Origin: Larkinella rosea
GTDB lineage: Bacteria > Bacteroidota > Bacteroidia > Cytophagales > Spirosomataceae
DNA length: 64,000 nucleotides
Assembly: GCF_003858635.1 (NCBI RefSeq)
Contig: NZ_RQJO01000007.1
Coordinates: 1,923,941-1,987,940 of the forward strand
Direction of reading: 5' to 3'
The notes below the pieces were generated by a model. That model was not told the origin of the DNA, ran no database searches, and worked only from the letters and a program-made list of their open reading frames with translations. Numbering within the stretch: position 1 is the first letter of the stretch; each line of letters opens with the position of its first letter. The translations under genes and the position numbers were made by a program. Shown here in pieces: positions 33,046 through 38,109 of this stretch.

Positions 33046-34093
33046 TCTTGTGTAACTATAACCGGTCGAAGCAGGCAGAAGTTTATTTCTGCGCTCTCAG
33101 AAGGTAAATTTTTGCAGACTAAAGTGAGTTAATCGCACGTGAAGAAAAAATATAGAGTGGATTTAATGTCTGATATTTGACTAATTAGTCCTCAATGAAA
33201 AGCAAGCTATTGATAAGCTATTGTAAAAACCAGTGTGGATATTTAACTTCCTTCTTCTTACCAGATATTGCATTGTTTCAATTTTCAGTTTTTTAATCCC
33301 ACGTAGGCAATGAGCAAATTAGTATAAAAGATGGTGATTTCGAAAATCTGAGGCCTTTGACTCCGAATCAAGTTTGAAAAAAAATCATTGTGAGAATATC
33401 GCTTTAGGGAAGTTGCGGCCAAAGGCAGAGCAAAAACACAGGGCAAGCGGCTTTCTAAAAAATGAAACACTCTGCATTTATTAGAATAAAAAGGTCTGAT
33501 AATAGCCATATAATAAATAAAGAAAAATATATAGTTATTTCTCCTGAGTATTTAAGTACGATTTAATACATTCGCTTTCATAACCCTTAGTACTTAACGT
33601 GTAGAACTTAAATGAATTCTTCAACTCTCCTCGCCTGGCAGAACGGTTTTTCGTTTGTGCCTAAAGTCCCGAATCCATTCCAGGACGCTTCCAAGGTTCC
33701 ATTGCTTGCGTTTTTTTCACCATTTTATTCGGGATAACCCCTGAACGTTTCCAACAACCCGCGTGACGTAACACAATTTTACTTTCAGCCTATTCACTCG
33801 GATGGTTTTTGCAAACTGTTCGGAAAATATCCTATTGACGTATATGTAATAGCGTTAGGGAATTATTCACTAAATACGCGTTGATTTTTCAACCGATGGG
33901 TCTGATTTAGTCGTGGATTGGGAAAAGTTCAGCGCGCCAAATTGAGATATTCCGGTGTAGTATTCACTTGCCCTTCCAAAAAATAACCAGTAAATACGAT
34001 TTCCGCCAAAACGCCAGCTGTTTTGCCCAACAGTTAATGAAAATAGTTGAAGATCGACTTTAGAACCGTGTATTTATAAATTAAATCAGCTAT
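33046..34093. other. AT-rich stretch without a supported gene
   Basis: About 1 kb of DNA with clearly lower G+C than its surroundings and frequent stop codons in all frames. One 74-residue minus-strand frame (33285-33509) has no recognisable content. No repeat ends, transposase or tRNA were found, so it is best read as a degenerate or regulatory spacer beside the accessory GTPase locus. Confidence 0.55.
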
Positions 34094-34354
34094 ATGGACC
34101 CGACCATCTGCGCAACCATCATGCATCCGGCAACGGGGTATCTCCAGCTTCGGCTATCGCAGCCTTCGATCGGTGCGGTTTTGGAGTTGTTGAACCTATA
34201 TGTTCAGGACGGCTATGAGGTATTGTCCGCCTTTTTGATCGATTCGTCGAGTTGCCTCCGACTCCCGCCCGAAGCCTTTGACGGTCAGCCAATCTGGCGG
34301 CCGATGCTACAACTCAAGCTCGAATGGCAACAGGTGTTGCGTGTTCAAACGTAA
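34094..34354 (+). CDS. Small hypothetical protein before the GTPase genes
   Basis: An 86-residue frame with genome-like G+C inside an AT-rich region, which favours a real gene. It has MHPATGYLQLRLSQPS and a mixed alpha/beta pattern with no export signal or known motif. It lies 291 bases before the first GTPase gene on the same strand and may be part of the same locus. Not recognised; it could be a chance frame. Confidence 0.5.
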   Translation: MDPTICATIMHPATGYLQLRLSQPSIGAVLELLNLYVQDGYEVLSAFLIDSSSCLRLPPEAFDGQPIWRPMLQLKLEWQQVLRVQT

Positions 34355-34453
34355 TGAAAAAGATAAAGTGAGTAGAAGGCCGGTATATTATCAGACATCC
34401 TATTGACCTAAGATATTAAATTAAAAAATACATGAAAAATAATTAATACAGCA

Positions 34454-34483
34454 TTGTTTAGTCAAATATCCTAAGTAACTTTC
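34454..34483 (+). promoter_or_regulatory. Putative promoter of the two-GTPase operon
   Basis: TTG (34454-34456) and TAACTTTC (34476-34483) lie 19 bases apart. The leader to the first GTPase would be about 155 bases. Confidence 0.45.
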
Positions 34484-34645
34484 CCGGCGAAATTAGTAAC
34501 TATTGTCGGGTAAATACTTAGAAATACCATTAGCTGAAGCGTTTTTCTATTTAAAATCTTCTATTTATTTCCCTGATTTTCACTATTTTCTCTGTCCAAC
34601 TTTTAGTCCGAAACGTGTCTATTTAACCCAAATCATAATCGATTA

Positions 34646-36859
34646 ATGACCTCTATTTTAATCCAGGAAAAACGGGAACAGCGGGTAGGTGCCATTGTCG
34701 CCAAACGGCAGTCTGTTGCGAAAAAATTGAATAATATCAGACAGGTTTTCAACTCGTTGAAGGCGACTATCGAAGTGATGGAGGAAAGGCGCACGGAGAT
34801 CTATCATTCCACGGATAACGAAACCATTCGATACCGTCTTTCCACGATTGATCTTCCGGGCCTTCGGCAACGGGTTGAAATAGAGGAGAAAAACGTGGCC
34901 CGGTATTATTCCCGTTTCGCCCGAAAAACCCTCAATATCGGAGCGGTTGGGTTGGCTCGACAAGGCAAGAGCCAGCTGTTGCGCAGTCTTTCCGGATTAG
35001 ATGACAGCGCTATTCCGGCGGGTCCGTTCGGTCATTGCACCGGGACCCGAAGTACCATTATCCATAGTCCGCTGGTGGAACCGCACGGCGAGATTGAGTT
35101 CTATACGAAGAACGAATTTGTGAAGGAAGTCATCGCTCCGTATTACTCGGAACTTCTTGATTCTGTGCAACAACCGACTACTTTGGAGGAGTTTGAGCAC
35201 CAACCCCTGCCACCGCTTCCGGCGGAAAAACAGCAGAGTTTGAGTGCCAAAATCAAATATGCGCAACTGGAATTATACAAAAATCAATTAGGCAATTACA
35301 AACCGCTACTGTCCAGAACCTCACCCCGTTACGTGCCAATCAACAATGTGCGGGAATACGTGGCGCAGGAGGATACGAGCGGCAAAAGAATCTTTTACAA
35401 TTATCTGGCGGTTCGGGAAGCGCGCGTCGTCTGTACATTCCCCCACGACAACGTCGGCGATTTGGCGTTTGTGGATATTCCGGGGCTGGGCGATACCGGT
35501 ATTGTGGCCGAAAACTGGCTCGGGAATACCTTGAATAACGACGTCGATATCATTCTGTTTGTTAAAAAACCGTCGGCTTTAGGGGAAGTCTGGAAACCAC
35601 AGGAAGTTGATTTGTACGATACGCTGCGGAGTCTGTTACCCGAACTGGATCTGGAACGCTGGTCGTTTCTGGTCATGAACCGCGTGCGTTCGTCCTCACC
35701 AAATGAAGACAATGTTCGAAATTGCGAACGGCTTATTCGGGAAAAATCGGAGCAAATGAAGTTTGCCGGTGAAGTCATCGCCGACTGTTCGGACAGCGAA
35801 GAGGTGAGCGAAATCATCCTTCAGGAAGTGCTGGATTACCTGACCCAAAATATCGAGAAAATTGATCAGGTGTATATCAATTCGTTGTACGATCGCTTGC
35901 GGGTTTTACACGGCCAGATCAAGACGGAAGCGCAGAAGGCGAAAGAGGCTCTCGGCGTCGTTTCGGAATCTACCCCTTTTAGTTTCAACAGCTTCAATCG
36001 CTTGTTTAAGGATGTCGTCAAAAAAGTATACAGCGGTTTTGAGCAACTAACGAAAGACTTGCGCGACAAACGCGAAATTCCCGATGCGGTTTTTCAGGAT
36101 TACGTCGCGCGGGCGCAGGAAAATGCGTATGCCGACTCCGGCATACCCAGTCTGGAAGAAATCGAGGACACCCGAAACTTGCTCGGGGGCTATAAATCGG
36201 CCTGCGAATATTACCTGAATTACAACCGGACGCACCTTACCCGGCATTTCGAGAGCCTGGAAGAAGGACTGAGCAAATCGGTTGAATCGGTTAAAATCCA
36301 GCTTGCCGATGTCCTTAAAAATGAGTTTCAGGGGCGCTTGAATCAGCTGAGTGCAGCCACCGGAACGGCTTTTTTCAAGGATGTGGTCAAACTATTGGGC
36401 GAGCAGTATCCGGCGTTGCACCCCGCTTTTGAAATGCTGATTGACTTTCAGCTCTCGTACCAGGGATTTTTCTATTACCGGCTCCGCCGACACCTCGATT
36501 ATCTGGCACCGGATACGGGCATTGTGGAATTGAGCGTCAAACCGTCGGCGAAAGAAATTCATGACCTGCTGACGGCCATGCACAAAATTGTTCTGGAGAA
36601 TTTAAAAGGCGAGTTGATACACTGGCCGATCGAGATCAACCACGCCATTTTTGCTACCATCGAGCAGTTTGTGGACAAGGTGTTGCGCTCGGAAAATGCC
36701 ATCGATGAATGGCAATCGTTTTACATCGAAAACCGCGCAAAGGTCTGGCCGGAAACATTTCAGGAGCTGTCTGTTAACAACGGTTTACGGTGGCAATGGA
36801 TCGAGGTAACGGAACGGCTCGGTACGATAAACAAATCCATTTTAACATTCGAAAATTAA
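34646..36859 (+). CDS. Dynamin-like large P-loop GTPase of unknown role
   Basis: A 737-residue cytosolic protein. Residues 8-95 are predicted coiled coil (charged, heptad-like). The P-loop is GLARQGKS (102-109); CTGTRST (131-137) is a candidate G2, and VDIPGLGDTG (276-285) is G3. The canonical NKxD is replaced by MNRVRS near 344-349, so nucleotide specificity is uncertain. A long helical region fills the C-terminal half, as in dynamin-like proteins, but there is no obvious transmembrane helix. It is coupled to a second GTPase gene only 5 bases downstream, so the two products probably act together. Bacterial dynamin-like proteins remodel membranes and in some cases protect against phage; the role here is inference only. 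Confidence 0.82.
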   Translation: MTSILIQEKREQRVGAIVAKRQSVAKKLNNIRQVFNSLKATIEVMEERRTEIYHSTDNETIRYRLSTIDLPGLRQRVEIEEKNVARYYSRFARKTLNIGAVGLARQGKSQLLRSLSGLDDSAIPAGPFGHCTGTRSTIIHSPLVEPHGEIEFYTKNEFVKEVIAPYYSELLDSVQQPTTLEEFEHQPLPPLPAEKQQSLSAKIKYAQLELYKNQLGNYKPLLSRTSPRYVPINNVREYVAQEDTSGKRIFYNYLAVREARVVCTFPHDNVGDLAFVDIPGLGDTGIVAENWLGNTLNNDVDIILFVKKPSALGEVWKPQEVDLYDTLRSLLPELDLERWSFLVMNRVRSSSPNEDNVRNCERLIREKSEQMKFAGEVIADCSDSEEVSEIILQEVLDYLTQNIEKIDQVYINSLYDRLRVLHGQIKTEAQKAKEALGVVSESTPFSFNSFNRLFKDVVKKVYSGFEQLTKDLRDKREIPDAVFQDYVARAQENAYADSGIPSLEEIEDTRNLLGGYKSACEYYLNYNRTHLTRHFESLEEGLSKSVESVKIQLADVLKNEFQGRLNQLSAATGTAFFKDVVKLLGEQYPALHPAFEMLIDFQLSYQGFFYYRLRRHLDYLAPDTGIVELSVKPSAKEIHDLLTAMHKIVLENLKGELIHWPIEINHAIFATIEQFVDKVLRSENAIDEWQSFYIENRAKVWPETFQELSVNNGLRWQWIEVTERLGTINKSILTFEN

Positions 36860-36864
36860 CGATT

Positions 36865-38031
36865 ATGAATGCAGAATTTAACATTACGGTTCTGGGCACG
36901 GCACGGGCCGGAAAAACCAGTTTACTTTCTTCAATTTATAGTCAATTAGCGCAGGTTATTGGAGAAGCTAGCGGTCTCGAAATTAAACCGGTAGCGGATG
37001 CCGATGTGTTGCTGGACCAGCAGGTTTCTAACCTACAGAGTGCCTTTAACAGCATTACGCAAATGCCACTGAATAACGCAGATGTGGTACAGCCGACAAC
37101 CATTCCGGAGGAAAAAGTGAAGCCTAAACCCCGGTATGAATTTAAATTTGGCATTGATAGTAAGAAGTCCAAAACTACCTTTAAAAAAAGCAGCATCGTT
37201 GATGTAGGTGCTCTTTTAAACCTCCGCCAAAACAGCAAACGAAGCCCGAACCGGCTGGATACCCATCATTCCGACATCGGATACCGGTTTAACCTGGGTC
37301 AGAAAAATAAAAAACCGAAAATGCAATTGGTGCTGCGGGATTATCCCGGCGAGCAGATTCTGGATAATTCCAAAGAAGTCATCAACCGAATTCGGGAATG
37401 TGCCGTTACGCTGATCACCATTGATACGCCCGCTTTGATGATTGAAGGCAATTCGGCCTTTCCGTGGTCGTTCCACAAGGAGCGCAACCAGCTGGAAAAA
37501 AAGAAAAATGGAACGACCAACATCCACAGCATTTTTCAGGAAGCCTACAAGGAGTTAAAAGACAAAAAACTGGTTATTCTGGCACCGGTTAAATGCGAAA
37601 AATGGATGAAAGAACCGGAATCGGCCAGTCTGCTACTGGAGCGGATCAAGGCCGGTTATGATAGCCTGCTTCAGTTGCTGGCGAGCGAAAACCTGAAAGA
37701 TAACGTCGCCGTTGTGGTGACGCCGGTCGAAACTTTAGGAAGCATTGTCTATGCATACATGGATAATCAGGATGTGTATTCTCCCCAGTTCATGAAGCGC
37801 AGTGTTTCCTCCAAATATGATCCGCGGTATGGCGACCAACCCTTGCGGTACATGCTGCGGTTTGTGTTAAAACGTTTTCTGGAAAAACCCGGTTTTTGGT
37901 TCGACTGGTTTGGCGATGATAAACCGTTCCTGAACGCCATTCATGATTTCGCGAAAGATTGCAAATCGGATTATTCGCAGGGAATTCAAACCAGCGGTTT
38001 TTCCGTCATTCAGGGCAGTCAGTTACTGTAA
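36865..38031 (+). CDS. Compact P-loop GTPase paired with the dynamin-like protein
   Basis: A 388-residue protein from the ATG at 36865 (MNAEFNITVLGTARAGKTS), preferred to 36790 because it starts 5 bases after the upstream stop and gives a P-loop right at the N-terminus (GTARAGKT, 11-18). A low-complexity basic stretch with Lys-rich segments spans about 75-120. The G3-like motif is LRDYPGEQI, with LILAPVKCEKW in place of a standard G4. This layout resembles the DO-GTPase-type family described from bacterial conflict systems, but the match is by eye. It ends at a hairpin shared with the convergent cysteine desulfurase. Confidence 0.78.
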   Translation: MNAEFNITVLGTARAGKTSLLSSIYSQLAQVIGEASGLEIKPVADADVLLDQQVSNLQSAFNSITQMPLNNADVVQPTTIPEEKVKPKPRYEFKFGIDSKKSKTTFKKSSIVDVGALLNLRQNSKRSPNRLDTHHSDIGYRFNLGQKNKKPKMQLVLRDYPGEQILDNSKEVINRIRECAVTLITIDTPALMIEGNSAFPWSFHKERNQLEKKKNGTTNIHSIFQEAYKELKDKKLVILAPVKCEKWMKEPESASLLLERIKAGYDSLLQLLASENLKDNVAVVVTPVETLGSIVYAYMDNQDVYSPQFMKRSVSSKYDPRYGDQPLRYMLRFVLKRFLEKPGFWFDWFGDDKPFLNAIHDFAKDCKSDYSQGIQTSGFSVIQGSQLL

Positions 38032-38033
38032 AA

Positions 38034-38059
38034 AATAGACCGCCGGATGGCGGTCTATT
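38034..38059 (-). terminator. Terminator of the cysteine desulfurase gene
   Basis: An 11-bp perfect stem AATAGACCGCC/GGCGGTCTATT around a 4-base loop; on the minus strand it is followed by TTTTT, 50 bases past the stop at 38110. It lies directly after the GTPase stop. Confidence 0.75.
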
Positions 38060-38109
38060 CCGGGATTCGTTTAGTGGGAAATGCAGAACGGGGACAATCC
38101 CGCTGTCCG

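Follow-up and report, generated by a model that had tools for sequence, protein, structure and literature searches.

The window analyzed in this study is a stretch of 64,000 nucleotides from the 8.17 Mb genome of Larkinella rosea (genome G000, contig C10; NZ_RQJO01000007.1, positions 1,923,941 to 1,987,940 of the forward strand), a member of the Spirosomataceae within the Bacteroidota. Two adjacent genes on its plus strand form a real accessory two-gene module. The first open reading frame (ORF), located at 34646–36859, encodes a protein of 737 amino acids (aa) which is predicted to be a bacterial dynamin-like protein (DLP). The second, at 36865–38031, encodes a small GTPase of 388 aa, counted from its ATG, with similarity to the DO-GTPase2 family (PF19993). 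The DLP stop codon and this ATG are separated by 5 bases, and the open frame of the small GTPase itself begins earlier, with a GTG at 36790. Both ORFs, their lengths and their spacing had been named in an original prediction made without database searches and were verified. Immediately past the second stop codon, a hairpin on the plus strand (38034–38059; -18.5 kcal/mol, z -4.5) is the probable terminator of the two-gene operon.

The DLP matched Dynamin_N with 28.4 bits (curated cut-off 27), and the same match was found at E 0.01 in all 24 aligned members of its family. Its G1 motif or P-loop GLARQGKS (34949–34972, plus strand, residues 102–109) and its G3 motif, DIPG at 35474–35485 (plus strand) within DIPGLGDTG (residues 277–285), read as originally described and were largely conserved among the 24 sequences. 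The residues G102, G107, K108, S109, D277, P279 and G280 were invariant, and so were the GKS and DxPG signatures and the G2 threonine T132. A canonical G4 motif (T/N)KxD was present in none of the 24 DLPs; all of them have Asn345, and in 18 the next residue is H or R. Since this G4 lacks the aspartate, the specificity for guanine is only putative.

An AlphaFold2 model of the DLP (mean predicted local distance difference test score, pLDDT, 81.5; predicted template modelling score, pTM, 0.55) bore out the long helical C-terminus of the original prediction. What had been taken for an N-terminal coiled coil was modelled as helices of residues 3–55, 59–66 and 70–91, which precede the G domain. By E-value, the top matches of this model in a Foldseek comparison with the PDB were BDLP (6.8e-13), SynDLP (6.2e-12) and IniA (2.9e-10), followed by MxB, Drp1, Cj-DLP and mitofusin/Fzo1; identity across the first seven matches was 11–13%. 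With the known proteins BDLP, SynDLP, IniA, DynA and Cj-DLP1/2 the window DLP shares the Dynamin_N G domain and the helical stalk, and they include its best fold matches. However, it differs from them by this low identity and by the G4 without aspartate. When the profile of the DLP family was compared with the PDB, the best match was IRGB10 (E 4e-5), confined to the P-loop region. No transmembrane segment was detected in the DLP by hydropathy. Membrane binding and assembly-stimulated GTP hydrolysis would be expected of such a protein.

The small GTPase reached 31.2 bits against DO-GTPase2 (cut-off 27), and 19 of 21 aligned members matched this family at E 0.01. These partner proteins ranged from 308 to 424 aa, and the families listed for them at E 0.01 did not include Dynamin_N. 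Three motifs lie on the plus strand: G1 (GTARAGKT, 36895–36918), G3 (DYPG, 37339–37350) and a G4-like KCE (37591–37599). The earlier statement that neither GTPase has a canonical NKxD holds for the DLP, whereas the small GTPase carries xKxE (K243, E245), a variant of xKxD, as do 20 of the 21 sequences in all. A glutamate directly after DxPG, which may be the conserved Walker B glutamate of DO-GTPases, is present in Larkinella and in one Siphonobacter locus (L009) and absent from the other Siphonobacter sequences and from Dyadobacter. YcjX (DUF463), a stress GTPase, was matched weakly by the profile of the small-GTPase family (A6; E 0.0055), in its N-terminal part only (profile positions 5–107), and the window protein itself scored 12.9 bits against DUF463 (cut-off 25). 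No zinc ribbon was matched in a family search of the small GTPase, and in PADLOC it gave weak matches to PtuA models only.

Between the G2-like Thr78 and G3 the small GTPase has an expanded loop of 80 aa (37099–37338, plus strand). Across the 21 aligned sequences this loop ranged from 24 to 81 aa, with 24–33 aa in 15 of them and 53–81 aa in the other six. The long loops were those of Larkinella (80, 81 and 81 aa) and of related copies in genera g5 and g16 (53, 56 and 58 aa), while two other g5 copies had 31 aa. In the GTPases of L. arboricola and a second genome (G001) the loop preceding G3 has two copies of the segment NLGQKNKKPKV, at residues of about 118–155. This repeat suggests that the loop may have diversified by duplication.

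To follow the two genes through the family, profiles of each protein were run over the same 222 genomes. We used our own profiles because a PF19993 search of the L. rosea genome returned only a sub-cutoff match on another contig (C11) and missed the window GTPase, so that family-based genome searches are insensitive here. Each profile matched 15 of the 222 genomes, in 5 of 36 genera, and the 15 were identical; neither gene belongs to a universal core. Were genomes independent, the chance of such an agreement would be near 1e-23, but they are not, and the figure merely illustrates the fit. The pairing was near-obligate: the two genes lay side by side at 16 of 17 DLP places and at all 16 GTPase places. 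Both gene orders occurred, with the DLP first in Larkinella, Dyadobacter and genera g5 and g16, and the GTPase first in Siphonobacter. With start codons chosen by us, the gap in the Bacteroidota loci was -8 to 9 bp in 10 of 11 cases with the DLP first (43 bp in the remaining one) and 146–193 bp in the Siphonobacter order. An all-versus-all comparison of the genes around 17 loci yielded no further family at more than four loci; recurring neighbour families came from closely related sites or were scattered matches. The DLP and GTPase trees correlated (r 0.88, n = 20), which shared descent alone could also yield.

In an even sample of the order, 3 of 390 genomes gave a match, all of them in the family of L. 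rosea. A profile built from four aligned sequences found only the L. rosea genome in a sample of the phylum (1 of 395). Two peptide patterns from a four-row alignment, scanned against genome contigs, found six loci, all in Bacteroidota. Within open-licence PubMed Central, no title or abstract start among those listed described a pairing of a DLP with a DO-GTPase, and dynamin was absent from the two papers using the term DO-GTPase. As far as searched, the pairing is undescribed, as the original prediction had supposed, and none of the known two-gene systems tested matched the pair.

The genes flanking the pair in the window (metC-like, SDR, nifS-like and phosphoglucomutase-like; these labels, like DUF349 and MreB below, come from a reading of the translations and not from a family search) are collinear in eight other Larkinella genomes, of which six lack the pair and two have it at a different place. 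In these eight genomes the SDR and nifS-like matches are 111–265 bp apart, compared with 5.06 kb in the window. The six genomes without the pair show an empty site, and the locus is an accessory one between ordinary genes. We place the inserted cassette at approximately 33086–38105; its left end was judged by eye on a weak match and may lie anywhere from about 33046 to 33086. An AT-rich leader of about 1.56 kb (33086–34645) forms part of the insertion and is absent from the other eight genomes of the genus. In both Larkinella genomes that carry the pair elsewhere, the SDR gene has a second, tandem copy at the site of the window pair, between the nifS-like and metC-like genes (L084 and L085).

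In L. arboricola and G001 the pair is found at another site, beside a DUF349-type gene and bounded by DUF349 and MreB genes. No clean empty site was seen for this second location among seven other genomes, which had neither the pair nor the MreB gene in the DUF349 flank examined; one of these flanks (L100) is truncated by the end of its contig, and no match was obtained for the far flank. Copies from genus g5 were scattered among other genera in the dynamin tree, with supports of 0.81–1.00. Synonymous divergence (dS) between the window pair and its two Larkinella relatives was 2.5–2.7, compared with 0.96–1.72 for six genes that lie near it in these genomes, as horizontal transfer would give; NG86 estimates of this size approach saturation and are indicative only. 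At the protein level the DLP (76–77% identity) was not less conserved than the SDR neighbour (73–74%). The ratio of nonsynonymous to synonymous divergence (dN/dS) was 0.02–0.08 for DLP and GTPase (six comparisons for each gene, two of which yielded no dS) and 0.04–0.13 for the six neighbouring genes. Both genes are under purifying selection. Taken together, these findings argue that a functional pair was acquired separately.

The leader had been recognized as AT-rich in the original prediction, and its GC content is indeed 38.1%, compared with 50.3% for the whole window. It contains no conserved gene. Readings of it as a structured RNA or as a repeat array were rejected; Rfam gave one sub-threshold match, and the repeats in it were short only. 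The sequence TTTG-N18-22-TAnnTTTG, which we take to be the Bacteroidota promoter consensus, was not found near the operon; two matches occurred elsewhere in the window, where 1.1 are expected. A possible 86-aa protein upstream of the pair (34094–34354, plus strand), an open frame only, had been named in the original prediction. It had no match up to E 1 in Pfam, NCBIfam, PADLOC or PHROGs and none by tblastn at E 1e-8 over 10 Larkinella loci, and the surrounding 1.55 kb are missing in the other eight Larkinella genomes. Going by these comparisons the ORF is probably spurious, and it is rejected as a third component.

Beyond the Bacteroidota, tblastn of the DLP against a plasmid collection returned 10 records, eight cyanobacterial and two from actinomycetes, at 24–37% identity. 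One relative lies on a conjugative plasmid, and the Nonomuraea record, at 11.85 Mb, is labelled a plasmid and is chromosome-sized. A DO-GTPase-like gene directly follows the DLP in five of the ten. In Nostoc carneum this gene scored 35.9 bits, above the cut-off, and Aulosira has the same layout; the Nonomuraea partner matched our own profile at 2.1e-58. Lower scores were obtained for the partners in Streptomyces (14 bits, below cut-off) and Stanieria (24.8 bits against DO-GTPase1, below cut-off, and missed by the Bacteroidota profile), both in the range of 17–18% identity to the window GTPase.

Additional genes accompany some of these relatives (L038 11588–13059, L041 11028–11930 and L046 11196–12535). 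A protein of 290–328 aa with one strongly hydrophobic C-terminal segment is the product of a third gene in Nostoc, Nonomuraea and Streptomyces; the Kyte-Doolittle means of this segment were 3.17, 2.94 and 2.45, respectively. In a comparison of the three sequences, the Nostoc and Nonomuraea proteins were weakly similar (E 0.002) and the Streptomyces protein was not. A small fourth protein is encoded downstream in Nostoc, Aulosira and Streptomyces. On pNsp_h, a mobilizable plasmid of Nostoc sp. ATCC 53789 (L045 1–10631), three consecutive GTPase-like genes are divergent from an 881-aa dynamin. The first scored 40.8 bits against DO-GTPase1, and the matches of the other two stayed below the cut-off; a vWA-domain protein and a large protein are encoded beside them. 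This locus could be an undescribed larger system. In a Pseudanabaena galeata plasmid (L040 8004–11371) the DLP relative is present as two ORFs, and the opposite-strand ORFs between them look like an inserted transposase.

How could the two proteins work together? Dynamins act by assembling on membranes. For DO-GTPases a switch function has been proposed, and in published systems tubulin or HSP70 is coupled to them (Kaur et al. 2020, PMC7159879). Based on these two points and the long G2–G3 loop, we would divide the pair into a switch and an effector. The horizontally spread operon would encode a single machine, in which the DLP uses GTP and its helical stalk to assemble on membranes and the small GTPase is a Ras/YcjX-like DO-GTPase switch with the DLP as its effector. 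Most likely the small GTPase would bind the DLP and license or restrain its assembly. The trigger may be membrane damage, a phage protein or lysis, and the expanded switch-region loop is a candidate surface for contact or sensing. In some lineages the third protein with its C-terminal hydrophobic segment suggests membrane action; in these cyanobacterial and actinobacterial versions it may fix the complex at the membrane. We see an even chance that the DO-GTPase controls the assembly of a membrane-acting dynamin in this way and that the operon is one machine, with physical contact between the proteins and control running from the small GTPase to the DLP.

A wider proposal is that the pair is a mobile immune or membrane-guard switch, distributed from Bacteroidota to cyanobacterial plasmids and actinomycetes, in which a dedicated non-dynamin GTPase gates the assembly of a dynamin on membranes and the pair protects against phage or envelope stress. 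We put this forward tentatively, somewhat short of an even chance. The actinomycete and cyanobacterial versions would then add a C-terminally anchored third protein. By analogy, the division into regulator and effector would resemble that of mammalian immunity-related GTPases, among which such a split is known. A precedent is DynA of Bacillus subtilis, which forms membrane clusters and delays lysis upon phage infection (PMC8844932). The genomic context of the window pair is neutral on an antiphage role.

Several findings weigh against a gated dynamin. The PF19993 match of the window GTPase lies mainly in the P-loop region, with its best stretch at residues 7–30, and none of its stretches reaches E 0.01 by itself. 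The structure model of the small GTPase, which resembles translation-factor and Arl-type GTPases, is poor (pLDDT 55). Among the 50 fold matches listed for the DLP, TM-scores over the query were only 0.15–0.34 (BDLP 0.26, SynDLP 0.34) and the root mean square deviation was 8–49 A. These values may reflect domain orientation or a real difference, so that the dynamin assignment rests on the G domain and the overall helical stalk. One genome with a complete pair (G508) additionally carries a partnerless second DLP (L051 8272–10455), in which the G2 motif HCTG is changed to RGTA and the P-loop RQGKS to RHGKS. At the Siphonobacter locus L009 (7589–9531, G027:C3) a full-length GTPase is followed by a 283-aa C-terminal DLP stalk only, the G domain being missing. 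Four of the ten plasmid-collection relatives (two Calothrix, the Pseudanabaena copy and an Anabaena fragment) have no adjacent DO-GTPase, and searches of 50,697 phage records and of viral contigs yielded no relative. Finally, the authors of the DynA study propose a passive response to membrane deformation without sophisticated signal perception (PMC8844932), a role that would not need a switch partner.

Membrane stress competes seriously with defence as an explanation. The pair could be a membrane-maintenance device for envelope repair, vesiculation or tolerance of membrane-active antibiotics, with no role against phages, and the GTPase would target the DLP to damaged membrane. DynA and IniA act at membrane lesions (PMC8844932), and a DO-GTPase beside a psp operon was predicted to function in membrane stress (PMC11237479). 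The weak finding of YcjX by the A6 profile and the metabolic-looking neighbours of the window pair agree with this. However, a patchy distribution, mobility and plasmid relatives are more typical of accessory conflict genes, and we consider pure maintenance rather unlikely.

Less probable still is a reduced form of the GTPase-centric DO-GTPase conflict systems, in which the DLP would replace tubulin or HSP70 as the self-assembling effector and an unrecognized GAP1-like part would be located elsewhere. The small GTPase belongs by its match to the same DO-GTPase2 family, its partner is expected to self-assemble like the tubulin and HSP70 partners of the published systems (PMC7159879), and the third genes of Nostoc, Nonomuraea and Streptomyces would fit as well. 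Nevertheless, GAP1-M (PF20014) was found in none of the 15 pair-bearing genomes, while the same search was positive in one of 14 control genomes (Corynebacterium glutamicum). The sensitivity of this search is limited, as it may miss members in the way that the PF19993 search missed the window GTPase. Membership in a GAP1-type system is likewise disfavoured by the three third-gene proteins, which match no Pfam GAP1 family, and by the Bacteroidota loci, which have no third gene in common, although no search by name was aimed at GASH and effector families. The term dynamin is absent from PMC7159879.

Very improbable is a dynamin pair of the Eleos (LeoA-LeoBC) or Campylobacter type. Eleos is reportedly made up of two dynamins, LeoA and LeoBC. 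Like the window pair, Eleos and the DefenseFinder 'Dynamins' combine dynamin-type GTPases with a small operon, and they have an antiphage role (PMC11811056); bacterial dynamins are, moreover, usually found as side-by-side operon pairs (PMC6104087). The PADLOC model of LeoBC was matched by 10 of 24 DLPs (best E 6.5e-8) and that of LeoA weakly by four (best 1.2e-4), and the Nonomuraea partner GTPase touches LeoBC at E 0.0022. In contrast, the window DLP matches neither model at E 1 and has no PADLOC match, and its partner is DO-GTPase-like and not a second dynamin, so that membership in Eleos was rejected. That two independent cargo genes travel together by chance, as might be imagined for an accessory pair between metabolic-looking genes, is hardly credible given their identical presence in the 15 genomes, the two gene orders and the purifying selection on both.

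The activation of bacterial dynamins is, in our judgement, poorly known. Phage protection by DynA depends on GTP binding and hydrolysis, but the step under GTPase control is still regarded as speculative by its authors (PMC8844932). A dynamin nearly always encoded with a separate switch GTPase offers a direct two-protein test of such control. With it, the DO-GTPase family would also reach beyond GAP1-based systems to effectors that remodel membranes, and the antiphage arsenal would gain a regulated dynamin if the pair is protective.

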